Shown here piece after piece: positions 3,939 through 37,113 of a DNA stretch of 42,894 nt; the first letter of the stretch is position 1, and every line of letters starts with the position of its first letter. Under the pieces are notes generated by a model that was not told where the DNA came from, did not search any database, and was given only the letters and a program-made list of their open reading frames with translations. Location: NCBI GenBank assembly GCA_022508325.1, contig JAFLVL010000005.1, forward strand, positions 1 to 42,894, in the 5' to 3' direction. Position numbers and translations under genes: made by a program. The stretch is from Clostridiales bacterium (GTDB lineage Bacteria; Bacillota; Clostridia; Christensenellales; CAG-314).

Positions 3939-4013
3939 ACTGTTAGTATATCACATAAATTTTGATTTGTGAATAAAATTTACGCAACTTTTACCAACTT
4001 TTCTCACCCCATA

Positions 4014-10581: not shown

Positions 10582-12681
10582 TTATTCTCTTTTTAGGTCG
10601 AAGTCGATTTTGCACGCCTGTTTGTTGACAGACGCGACGGTGACGGTCACTGCGTCGCCAAGTGAGTATTTTACGCCCTCGCCGTAAAGGCAGAACTGCT
10701 CTCTGTTGTAGCTCAAGTGTTGCCCCAGCTTTTCGATTGAGATAAATCCCTCTACCGTATTGGGCAATTCAGCGTAAATACCGCGTTCGGTAACGCCGGA
10801 AATGAGCGCATCGAAACTCTGACCTATGAGATTTGCCGCATACGCGCACTTCTTGACGTCGTCGGCTTTGCGCTCGGCTTCGTCGGCAATTTTTTCGCGA
10901 ATTGAGGACTGTTTTGCCCCATCATACGCCATATCTTCATAAGCGCGAAGGGCTTTTTCCGTCATTTTGCCATTAATCGCCGTTTTCAATATACGGTGAA
11001 CGATTAAATCGGGATAGCGGCGTATAGGCGAGGTAAAGTGACAGTAGCAACGGCTTGCCAGTCCGAAATGCCCTATATTTACGTCGCTATACTTCGCCTT
11101 TTGCATTGTGCGTAGCATTACGTCGTTGACTAGGTTGAAATACGGCGTCTTTTCTGCCTGCAAAAGCGCGTCCTGCAATACGGAATTGTGGATTTCCTGC
11201 GAGTGTTTGACCTTGATACCTATGCCTTCAAGCAGCTTCAACAATAGCGCGAGTTTTTCCTCGTCGGGCTTTGCGTGAACGCGATAAACAAACGGGTAAC
11301 TACAATTTTCTGCGTATTCAGCTACACATTCGTTTGCCACAATCATAAATTCCTCTATCAATTGGTGAGAAAAGCTGTTGTCTGCAAGTACCACGTCAAT
11401 GACGTTGCCTCGGTCGTCGTGAACAAAGGTGACTTCTTTGGACGCGAACTCAATATTGCCACGCTTGTTGCGCTTGTTTTGCAAAATTTCCGCCAATTCC
11501 TTCATCGCAAGCAGGTCAACGGCAATATCGGCGTAACGAGCCTGCGTTTCGGCGTCACCGTCAAATATTGCCTGCACTGCCGTGTAGGTCAAACGGTGGC
11601 AACTGTGTATCACTGAAGGGAATACATCGTAGTCCAATACTTTACCTTGGGCGTTTACCGTCATTTCGCAAGTCAGTGTCAACCTGTCGACCCCCTCGTA
11701 TAGCGAGCAAATACCGTTGGAAAGCTCGCGCGGCAGCATTGGAAAGACCATCTCGGGAAAGTACACGCTAGTCCCGCGGTTGAATGCTTCCTTGTCGATT
11801 GCGCTACCGACATTGACGTAGTGAGATACGTCGGCAATGTGTACGCCGAGCTTAAAAGTGCCGTCGAAATTTCTTTCAATTGAAACAGCGTCGTCAAGGT
11901 CCTTAGCGTCCTCACCGTCGATTGTGAATATCTTACAAGCTCGCAAATCGCGTCTGCCAATTAATTCGCTTTCAGCAACGGTATGCGGCATCTTCTCGGC
12001 TTGTGATTTGCAATCAGGCGGAAAATCTTGCGTCAGGCGATAGGTTCTGGCAACCGCAGCCATATCGACGTTTTTCTCTCCGGGAAAACCGAGAACTTCT
12101 ACTATCTCTCCCTCGGGATTTTGCCTGTTATCTTGCGGAAAAAAGGTGATTTGCGCCACCACTTTTTGTCCGTTTTTCGCCCCCATGTCACGTTTTGGCA
12201 AAATATAAACGTCTTTTACAAACTTCTTGTCATCGGGAATTACGAAACGAGCGTTATTGCTTTTGTCGTAAGTGCCGACGATTTGTGTCATGCCGCGAGA
12301 GATGATTTTGACCACTTCCGCCTCGTCGCTTGCACCCGATACGCGCCGATAAAGCACGACGTCCTTGTGGAACGCGCCGTGAGTTTTTGACGCGGGCACG
12401 AACAAGTCTTCTCCGTCCTCGCGAATGAGAAATCCGAACCCGCGAGGGTTGCCTTGAAATTCCGCGCGGCCGTATTCACCGACTTTGACCAGACGGTATC
12501 TACGGTTGCGGGCGTCGAACACCATTTCGCAATCCTCTTCAAGTTGGTGTAGAATGTCGGCTACGGTTTTCCTCTCGGCAGTTGAATGCGTGTGAAGAAT
12601 ACCGTACAGCTGTTTGGCTGTAAAGTATTCGGCATCGATGTTTTTGATTATTTCCAGTATCTTATCTTTTAGTGTTTCCAT
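10582..12681 (-). CDS. rnr: ribonuclease R
   Basis: RNB motif TIDGEDAKDLDDAVSIERN...FKLGVHIADVSHYV, C-terminal S1 domain. METLKDK (12681) preferred over the longer ORF start at 12708. Confidence 0.95.
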   Translation of the reverse strand: METLKDKILEIIKNIDAEYFTAKQLYGILHTHSTAERKTVADILHQLEEDCEMVFDARNRRYRLVKVGEYGRAEFQGNPRGFGFLIREDGEDLFVPASKTHGAFHKDVVLYRRVSGASDEAEVVKIISRGMTQIVGTYDKSNNARFVIPDDKKFVKDVYILPKRDMGAKNGQKVVAQITFFPQDNRQNPEGEIVEVLGFPGEKNVDMAAVARTYRLTQDFPPDCKSQAEKMPHTVAESELIGRRDLRACKIFTIDGEDAKDLDDAVSIERNFDGTFKLGVHIADVSHYVNVGSAIDKEAFNRGTSVYFPEMVFPMLPRELSNGICSLYEGVDRLTLTCEMTVNAQGKVLDYDVFPSVIHSCHRLTYTAVQAIFDGDAETQARYADIAVDLLAMKELAEILQNKRNKRGNIEFASKEVTFVHDDRGNVIDVVLADNSFSHQLIEEFMIVANECVAEYAENCSYPFVYRVHAKPDEEKLALLLKLLEGIGIKVKHSQEIHNSVLQDALLQAEKTPYFNLVNDVMLRTMQKAKYSDVNIGHFGLASRCYCHFTSPIRRYPDLIVHRILKTAINGKMTEKALRAYEDMAYDGAKQSSIREKIADEAERKADDVKKCAYAANLIGQSFDALISGVTERGIYAELPNTVEGFISIEKLGQHLSYNREQFCLYGEGVKYSLGDAVTVTVASVNKQACKIDFDLKRE

Positions 12682-14737: not shown

Positions 14738-14808
14738 ATTTTACCTCATAATTTCGCCTGAAAATGAGAATTTTCTAACCCCATATCGCGAATTTAGCTG
14801 AAATTTGA

Positions 14809-17091: not shown

Positions 17092-18144
17092 TCATAAAAA
17101 CCATTTATCGTTGACGGCAATCGTCGGGTCGTTGGGAGCGATTGACTTGGCTATCTCATGGCAACGCGCGGCTTGCGCCCTATCTCCCAACTGCCAGTAG
17201 CACACCGAGAGCTGTAAATTGGGCAAAAACTTGGCGTAGTACTCGTTGACAAATCCGCTCTGATTATGGCACGCAAGAGCAAGGGTATACCAATGCGAAG
17301 CGTGTAGATAATTGCGTTCGGCGTAGTAGGTGTTTCCCAAAAGACAGCACACCTCACTGCTTGGTGGCATGACGGCAAGACTTCGCGTCAAATAAATGCG
17401 AGCTAGCGCCACGTTGGTTACGTTCATAGCCATGCGTGAGAGCAGCTTGTAGCACTCCACCCTGTCGGCACTGTAAGCTCGCGCATTAGACGCGAACTTT
17501 CTAAGTATCGTCAAAGCCTCGTCTGTTAAGCCACACTCCACAAGCGTCTTTCCGTAGTAAAATTTGTCGCGCAGGCTGAAGCGTCTGCCATTTTTTATGG
17601 CGTTGAGATAAATTGATAGGTTGCGTTGTTCGTGCGAGGCAGACGGACGGTGGCACACCTTGGCGTCTAAATATGCAACAGTTCCGAAAGGAATTATTGC
17701 CTCGTGAATGAAGCCTTTGAAGCGACAATTTTTAGTGCGTTTTACAATTCTTTCACGCCAGAACCAAAATGGAATTTGCGTGTCCATTTCGTATTTCATA
17801 TAGTAAAAATCTGCGTTTTCTTGCGCATTTTTCCACCCCATGTCAACTTTTTTCCACCCCATTATTAATTTTTGCGTTTCGAGAGGTACGATATCGTCGG
17901 CGTCAAGCCACATGATGTAGTCGCAAGTCGCTTTGCTGATTGCGTAGTTTCGAGCTTTGGAAAAATCGTCGCACCAAAGGAAATTGTAGACCCTGGTCGT
18001 GAAATTTTTGGCTACGGCTACGGTGCCGTCGGTCGAGCCTGTGTCAACTATTATCACTTCGTCGGCGAACGTCAACTGAGGCAACAGGCGGGCAAGATTA
18101 TCTTCTTCGTTTTTTACAATCAATGTAACAGATAGCGTTTTCAT
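17092..18144 (-). CDS. family 2 glycosyltransferase with C-terminal TPR-like region
   Basis: SVTLIVKNEEDNLARLL...EVIIVDTGSTDGT...YIMWLDADD. Confidence 0.9.
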   Translation of the reverse strand: MKTLSVTLIVKNEEDNLARLLPQLTFADEVIIVDTGSTDGTVAVAKNFTTRVYNFLWCDDFSKARNYAISKATCDYIMWLDADDIVPLETQKLIMGWKKVDMGWKNAQENADFYYMKYEMDTQIPFWFWRERIVKRTKNCRFKGFIHEAIIPFGTVAYLDAKVCHRPSASHEQRNLSIYLNAIKNGRRFSLRDKFYYGKTLVECGLTDEALTILRKFASNARAYSADRVECYKLLSRMAMNVTNVALARIYLTRSLAVMPPSSEVCCLLGNTYYAERNYLHASHWYTLALACHNQSGFVNEYYAKFLPNLQLSVCYWQLGDRAQAARCHEIAKSIAPNDPTIAVNDKWFL

Positions 18145-18938: not shown

Positions 18939-20018
18939 TTATGAACGCTTCAAAAGAGCCTCGGCGGAGACAGCGATGCCGTCGCCGTTACCTAGCGCTC
19001 CTAAGTGTTCGGTCGTAGTTGCAGAGATATTTACACAAAAAACGCTGATTTTAAGTATTTTTGAAAGCTTTTCTGCCATTTTTTCAATATATGGCGAGAT
19101 TTTGGGTTCTTGACATATCACGACTGCGGAAACGTTGACTATTTCGTAGCCACTTTCTGCTGCCATTTCGACACAGCGAGCGAGTAACTTCGTACTATCT
19201 ATTCCTTTATAGCGAGGGTCTGTATCGGGAAACTGATGACCGATGTCGCGACTACCTGACGCGGACAAAACAGCGTCGCAAACTGCATGACACAGCGCGT
19301 CAGCGTCGGAATGTCCCTTGAGCTTTTTGTTAAACGGAATTGAAACGCCACCGAGAATAACGCAATCGCCGCTAGCGAACGGATGAACGTCAAAGCCAAC
19401 GCCAATCTTATATTCGGGTAAATCCTCGGCGTAGGTTACTTTCGTATTGGAACGCAATCCGTCAACAAAATTCACTTCGCCGTAAGTTTCCAAATATAAC
19501 GTACTTTCATCGGGGTAGTCTGCCGTCGCGCTCTCTACTGCGTGACGTAGCTTTGCCAAATCAAAAACTTGGGGAGTTTGCACTGTAAAAAGTGCATTTC
19601 TGTCACATTTTTCGACCCCATGTCGATTTTTTTCTACCCCATATTCATTTTTTTGATAAATTGTATCCGTTACTGGCAAACTTGGGACGGCGCTACCGTG
19701 CCGTTCAGCTTCAAGAAAAAGACGCTCAACAAACGGTTTTGTTATGAACGGTCTCGCGCCGTCATGAATCGCAACTACGCCCTGAGCGTCATTAGCTAAT
19801 AAACGCAATCCGTTCTTTACAGATTGGAAACGCGTGTCTCCTCCCTCTGCAAAAACCGTTCCCTCAACACGCTGCCCCACTACGATTACGACGTCGGCGA
19901 CGTCTTTGAAAACGTCAACGGAATGTGTGAGGACGCTTTTGCCAAACAGCTGTGCGTTTAGCTTGTCTTTTCCAAATCGAGAGGCACTGCCGCCCGCAAC
20001 TATTATCGCGTATCTCAT
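18939..20018 (-). CDS. ispDF: bifunctional IspD/IspF
   Basis: IIVAGGSASRFGKDK...HDGARPF...VQTPQVF (IspD), then KIGVGFDVHPF...GHSDADALCHAVCDA...ATTTEHLGALGNGDGIA (IspF). Confidence 0.95.
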   Translation of the reverse strand: MRYAIIVAGGSASRFGKDKLNAQLFGKSVLTHSVDVFKDVADVVIVVGQRVEGTVFAEGGDTRFQSVKNGLRLLANDAQGVVAIHDGARPFITKPFVERLFLEAERHGSAVPSLPVTDTIYQKNEYGVEKNRHGVEKCDRNALFTVQTPQVFDLAKLRHAVESATADYPDESTLYLETYGEVNFVDGLRSNTKVTYAEDLPEYKIGVGFDVHPFASGDCVILGGVSIPFNKKLKGHSDADALCHAVCDAVLSASGSRDIGHQFPDTDPRYKGIDSTKLLARCVEMAAESGYEIVNVSAVVICQEPKISPYIEKMAEKLSKILKISVFCVNISATTTEHLGALGNGDGIAVSAEALLKRS

Positions 20019-22941: not shown

Positions 22942-23006
22942 TTTGCGGAGTTGAGTTTAACATTAATGCAAAGAAAATATTATTTTTCGCACCCCATGTC
23001 ACGTTT

Positions 23007-25324: not shown

Positions 25325-25454
25325 CGGCGAGGGTGTTCGGCAATACTATCACCAACTTTTTATAGCCATCTTTTTATGTAGAAGAGGGTTTTCGTGTGTG
25401 GCGCCTAGCGTAGCTCGAAGTCCACACACGAACACCCGAGCCGTACCCCGAGCC
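25325..25454 (+). repeat. intergenic hairpin element, copy B (nested/composite)
   Basis: 5' arm CGGCGAGGGTGTTCG (25325-25339) and 3' arm CGAACACCCGAGCCG (25429-25443), plus a second 5' arm GAGGGTTTTCGTGTGTGG (25384-25401) and second 3' arm ACCCCGAGCC (25445-25454). Confidence 0.75.
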
Positions 25455-29280: not shown

Positions 29281-29322
29281 GCACCCCGTTCGCGTTTTTT
29301 GCGATATGGGGTGCGTTTTTTT
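29281..29322 (+). terminator. terminator between convergent genes
   Basis: GCACCCC..CGC tttttt GCG..GGGGTGC-gTTTTTTT. Confidence 0.75.
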
Positions 29323-37059: not shown

Positions 37060-37113
37060 AAAAACGAAATGGGTTAAGATTTTTAAAAATTGTCTCAACC
37101 CATTTGCATTTTT
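37060..37113 (-). terminator. (bidirectional) terminator after GH2 gene
   Basis: AAATGGGTT..AACCCATTT with T-rich runs on both strands. Confidence 0.7.

Follow-up and report, generated by a model that had tools for sequence, protein, structure and literature searches.

The glycosyltransferase gene considered here carries a 21-bp repeat twice in frame, and the question it raises is what this repeat is and how it came to lie inside a coding sequence. The window, that is the whole analysed stretch of 42,894 nucleotides, is contig JAFLVL010000005.1 of a Clostridiales bacterium. A first-pass annotation, made from the letters of the window, had described the duplication, equated it with units in ispD and in intergenic DNA, and proposed that the unit spreads as DNA and is tolerated as peptide, in the manner of Rickettsia palindromic elements (RPEs).

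The in-frame duplication was confirmed. In the minus-strand translation LDADD is shortly followed by MGWKKVD MGWKNAQ, exactly as had been read, and only the span needed correction, since the array occupies 17821-17862 and not the slightly shifted 17827-17877. Ortholog alignment gave the gene of the source genome 7 residues (one 21-bp unit) more than most relatives have, and by this alignment the extra 21 bp may be either of the two units. Several relatives within the genus already have a single MGWK[NK] unit at this place, often written as ATGGGGTGGAAAAA and preceded by an A tract; the site is an old single unit common to them. At the ispDF site, which ortholog alignment puts within a length-variable loop, G021 has one HGVGKID unit and the source genome 7 residues more. 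These and the other sites discussed below are collected in Table 1.

Table 1. Host genes, repeat units and motif cores located in the window
Feature	Position	Strand	Sequence, peptide or score	Basis or remark
Host gene, family-2 glycosyltransferase (GT2, Glycos_transf_2) with C-terminal TPRs	17092..18144	-		Domain match
5' motif unit in GT gene	17842..17862	-	ATGGGGTGGAAAAAAGTTGAC, MGWKKVD	Orthologs: single unit, most with 7-residue gap
3' motif unit in GT gene	17821..17841	-	ATGGGGTGGAAAAATGCGCAA, MGWKNAQ	Orthologs: single unit
Host gene, bifunctional IspD-IspF fusion (ispDF)	18939..20018	-		Domain match
Motif unit in ispDF	19622..19642	-	ATGGGGTAGAAAAAAATCGAC, YGVEKNR	7 residues absent in G021
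Motif unit in ispDF	19601..19621	-	ATGGGGTCGAAAAATGTGACA, HGVEKCD	Ortholog alignment
Intergenic motif copy, core	4006..4012	-	33.3	PWM
Coding motif copy, core	12180..12186	-	DMGAKNG, 26.1	PWM and alignment; no indel vs relatives
Intergenic motif copy, core	14778..14784	-	36.7	PWM
Intergenic motif copy, core	22991..22997	-	33.0	PWM
Head-to-head inverted cores, 23 bp apart, then T run	29283..29312	+	ACCCCGT / ATGGGGT	PWM
Tail-to-tail inverted degenerate cores, hairpin-forming	37069..37103	+	ATGGGTT ... AACCCAT	PWM

Four matches to the repeat unit are present in the window against 0.02 expected from dinucleotide shuffles, and the PWM locates 21 motif sites (mean of 0.9 in shuffles), 10 of which score at least 20 against none in the controls. 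The annotation was right in placing the GT unit in the same motif as the ispD and intergenic units. The inverted pair at 29283..29312 would fold into a hairpin like that of a terminator, 40 bp away from the gene beside it. An Rfam scan of the window returned one tRNA and nothing else. A second dispersed repeat, with the core GAGGGTGTTCGG, was noticed at window positions 25329, 31813 and 32759 on the plus strand, often with TTAGAGG..CTCTTATGCAGGC before and GACGAATACCCGAGC after it; its exact core has 15 copies in 369 kb of the source genome.

For the genome-wide analysis the source genome (G000; relatives carry G numbers) was sampled at 369 kb and G021 at 400 kb, both samples being enriched for stretches with exact matches, so that motif densities are upper-side estimates and not unbiased ones. 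Genes were called by a simple script based on ORFs and codon usage, not by a standard gene finder. The motif has a consensus close to AAAAWTGCGACATGGGGTNRRAAAA with the core ACATGGGGTNRR, extends over about 25-45 bp with degenerate edges, and is non-palindromic: no palindromic structure was found in its profile, which is asymmetric. In an alignment seeded on ATGGGGT alone, A/T tracts appeared at -11..-7, +10..+14, +21..+24 and about +32, with a 10.5-bp period; centred at -9, +12, +22 and +32, they fall on one face of the helix. TTTTTCNACCCCAT with at most one mismatch occurs at 42 places in the source genome, compared to 2 for the reversed pattern. The 9-mer ACATGGGGT is the leading over-represented 9-mer in the source genome sample (44 vs 0.6 expected) and also in that of G021 (45 vs 0.8), is enriched in the G020 sample (15 vs 1.1), and showed no such enrichment by 9-mer counts in G024 and G003. 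A 52-bp PWM gave 166 sites in the source genome sample vs 19 in a third-order Markov control and 127 vs 9 in G021, and it transfers between the two genomes. The resulting density of about 0.3-0.45 sites per kb, in samples enriched for sites, is below that of Haemophilus.

Of the 166 sites 86 are intergenic, 62 coding in sense and 18 antisense; the corresponding numbers in G021 are 50, 49 and 28. Coding copies use all three reading frames and both strands, on which ground a repeat kept at the peptide level was rejected; together with the presence of copies in both intergenic and coding DNA this upholds the earlier view that the unit acts as DNA and not as peptide. The sense orientation is taken by 111 of the 157 coding sites of the source genome and G021 (p = 2e-7) and by 46 of the 66 co-directional intergenic sites (p = 0.002), while codon-shuffled genes predict a bias opposite to the observed one. 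In lagging-strand genes the orientation goes with the gene and not with the leading strand (13:3 and 4:1, small counts). A replication-polar motif of the KOPS or Chi kind was rejected, since site orientation tracks genes.

Direct pairs spaced at 21±1 bp are numerous in the source genome and not in G021, and head-to-head cores 24 bp apart occur in the source genome, G021 and G020 over a background of 0.04-0.08 per offset. Most head-to-head pairs lie about 30-50 bp after gene ends, several of them followed by T runs, and judged from this arrangement the pairs 24 bp apart probably form terminators just beyond the genes. The motif is denser between convergent genes than between divergent ones and its distances to gene starts are scattered, none being fixed, both of which disfavour a promoter or operator site. 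The six-site cluster at L137:12150-12404 (C34), the densest in the source genome, is flanked by genes whose sequences read as soj/spo0J and mnmE and lies close to where the origin is expected. Intergenic DNA of the G020 sample (L188-L207) is enriched in other words too, CAAGAGAAGG, AATCTGCAACG and GGTGGATGAG, which suggests a further repeat family in that genome.

The origin of the coding copies was followed by looking for indels at source-genome sites scoring at least 18, in 50 alignments against G021, G020 and G024. An indel at the site was found in 12 alignments; the two window genes account for 11 of these, and the remaining indel is of a single residue. The reverse comparison of G021 coding sites gave indels in 10 of 63 alignments, 4 at orthologs of the window genes and the rest mostly of one to three residues. 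Since the coding copies align almost gap-free to their orthologs, they arose by substitution; the concentration of indels at the GT and ispDF genes marks these two loci, both in variable stretches, as the only 21-bp tandem expansions among the source-genome sites. Local identity at the sites was 64% vs 76% for whole genes in the source genome (65% vs 76% in G021). The sites thus lie in permissive, less conserved stretches, and to this extent the supposed tolerance of the peptide was well founded.

ACATGGGGTNRRA is found 55 times in the source genome, 61 in G021, 28 in G020, 12 in G008 and 9 in G006, and 0-4 times per genome in the rest of the genus, with 0-1 for reversed controls. A pattern of core plus tract adds G012, G013, G002 and G005 as carriers, often with T for C at -1. 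Carriers within the genus belong to one clade of 14 in the IspDF tree (support 100/99; G002 is absent from the tree). G011 and G024 stand near the source genome and G021 in this tree, which does not resolve the branching among the four, yet have few sites. Among 396 genomes of the order, G387, from another family, has 26 ACATGGGGTNRRA matches vs 3 in the control, and the motif therefore recurs in at least one further family. A congener of it, G220, has 7 matches and several other congeners none, so that G387 beside motif-free congeners presents a patchy expansion. GCGACATGGGGTNGAAAAA matches were obtained in Clostridia contigs from rabbit gut (42-63% GC), mostly with the upstream A tract too, and in five cases outside Clostridia, without that tract. 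The 18-base form of the motif had no match among 2.9 million viral contigs, and a viral origin was rejected on this basis.

Such a layout recalls the self-DNA uptake signals USS and DUS, which according to PMC12616744 occur in two proteobacterial families only, Pasteurellaceae and Neisseriaceae. In USS the core is accompanied by A/T tracts at helical spacing (PMC12616744, PMC7811141), whereas DUS are continuous motifs, at most about 13 nt long, that have no phased A/T tracts (PMC12616744). Inverted pairs of both serve in terminators (PMC1852404), one orientation is favoured in genes (van Passel, PMC2346458), and both kinds occupy permissive genic positions and are scarce in acquired DNA (PMC2397512). 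The clostridial motif likewise has a short, asymmetric, over-represented core dispersed on both strands, A/T tracts at helical spacing, close inverted pairs placed after genes as probable terminators, and coding copies lying in permissive stretches with one orientation preferred. Like the clostridial motif, the Pasteurellaceae USS has an asymmetric core, about 9 bp long, from which A/T tracts stand off by one and two turns of the helix, and it is dispersed in hundreds of copies. The USS core is, however, AAGTGCGGT and not ACATGGGGTNRR, and the clostridial motif differs further in its additional upstream A tract, tandem 21-bp copies and lower density. With DUS it shares a dispersed self motif, inverted pairs as putative terminators and variants, with C or T at -1, but DUS have a receptor, ComP, and none is known for the clostridial motif. 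Its carriers within the genus fall into one supported clade, but it is also present in G387 of another family. We found no prior description of a USS-like clostridial motif in the literature searched.

DNA-uptake genes in the carriers speak against a function in uptake. ComEC is present in 25 of 25 genomes, and a PF00437 profile search for ComGA/PilB found neither in the strongest carriers, the source genome, G021 and G020 (completeness 77% for the first and 94-97% for the other two); the PF00437 match of G021 is PriA. Strong PilB-like matches were limited to G010, G004, G002 and G012, of which G010 and G004 are without the motif. The TIGR00426 match is Tex in G021 and the top matches elsewhere occupy frames of about the same length, so that ComEA was not seen. 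In G021, the genome richest in copies, neither the pilus nor the receptor by which known Gram-positives take up DNA was thus found. The set of pilus ATPase, ComEA and ComEC was represented in the strongest carriers by ComEC alone, for which reason the motif is described here as built like a USS and is not classed as one. A motif copy was observed beside the Competence domain of comEC at G021 C1:457238, G020 C6:37109, G002 C20:14967, G006 C14:7578 and G012 C31:12426; conservation of the peptide may account for it.

Foreign DNA was represented by an integrative conjugative element (ICE) at G021 C1:1-43700 (L108, L109, L110), which encodes a relaxase-like protein, TraG/VirD4, a VirB4-like ATPase, ArdC and a serine recombinase and has a G+C content of 38-40% in its first 40 kb vs 45-48% elsewhere. 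No site scoring at least 20 is present in these 43.7 kb; this scarcity is only suggestive, as it concerns one ICE and the adjacent dcw core region is equally free of strong sites until L112.

If the window is taken alone, its pair of arrays, that in ispDF above all, resembles an ordinary tandem repeat, and the matches elsewhere could be due to chance; the genome-wide counts refute this, and with the PWM transfer between genomes and the phased tracts they leave it next to no probability. An RPE-like mobile repeat, inserting as DNA and tolerated in proteins, has in its favour repeat DNA lying in frame within ordinary proteins and the two true in-frame 21-bp expansions of the window. RPEs are palindromic inserts of about 100-150 bp, while the present motif is short, non-palindromic and substitutional. 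Fixed-length insertion into genes was not found at source-genome coding sites outside the two window loci, where all but one alignment is gap-free, the edges of the motif are degenerate, and single units at the GT and ispDF sites pre-exist in relatives. Insertion of this kind was rejected for coding sites in view of the near gap-free alignments, the likeness to RPEs that the annotation had drawn does not extend to a degenerate motif whose coding copies nearly all leave gene length unchanged, and as a general account an RPE-like element is highly improbable. Chi sites are 5-8 bp long and lack phased flanking tracts. A recombination hotspot of the Chi kind, with AddAB/RecBCD-type enzymes as its readers, would fit the G-rich core, its over-representation and its co-orientation with genes; A/T tracts up to three turns off are needless for a site read on a single strand, orientation follows the gene in lagging-strand genes and not the leading strand, and the motif is nearly absent from close relatives, all of which makes this reading improbable, if a little less so than the RPE-like one.

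The main rival is a chromosomal protein binding double-stranded DNA, nucleoid-architectural, chromosome-organising or transcription-associated, which would bind cooperatively on one helix face and whose hundreds of sites selection would maintain. Helically phased tracts, site spacing of 21 and 24 bp, carriers without pilus machinery, orientation with transcription and the dense soj/spo0J-mnmE cluster speak for it, and we regard it as a real possibility, though not a probable one. It accommodates poorly the many genic sites in all frames at an amino-acid cost, the enrichment in convergent instead of divergent intergenic DNA with no fixed distance to gene starts, and the sharp differences among near relatives such as G021 vs G024 and G011. 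That the motif is driven by a bias in DNA acquisition or recombination, and not by a binding protein resident in the cell, is our inference.

Self-DNA recognition of the USS/DUS type may be the explanation, and we put it forward tentatively, at somewhat less than even confidence and with an inferred mechanism. The motif would be read as double-stranded DNA, fragments or loci carrying it would be favoured, and substitutions would build up matches at permissive places within core genes and in intergenic DNA, with inverted pairs reused as terminators; in the source species it has also multiplied locally as tandem units of 21 bp, or two helical turns, twice in frame in the window. That it is the first self-DNA recognition sequence of uptake or transfer type beyond Pasteurellaceae and Neisseriaceae, working in Gram-positive gut Clostridia through an acquisition route without the canonical competence pilus, is a bolder claim and a rather doubtful one.

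The clostridial motif is an independent case with the same phased layout, terminator-type pairs and gene-permissive placement, in hosts apparently without a pilus. If it is of the uptake type, self-specific DNA exchange extends to Gram-positive bacteria by another route; otherwise, it would show that DNA binding of another kind can give rise to a helically phased layout. The motif could also serve to follow exchange in gut lineages that have not been cultured.
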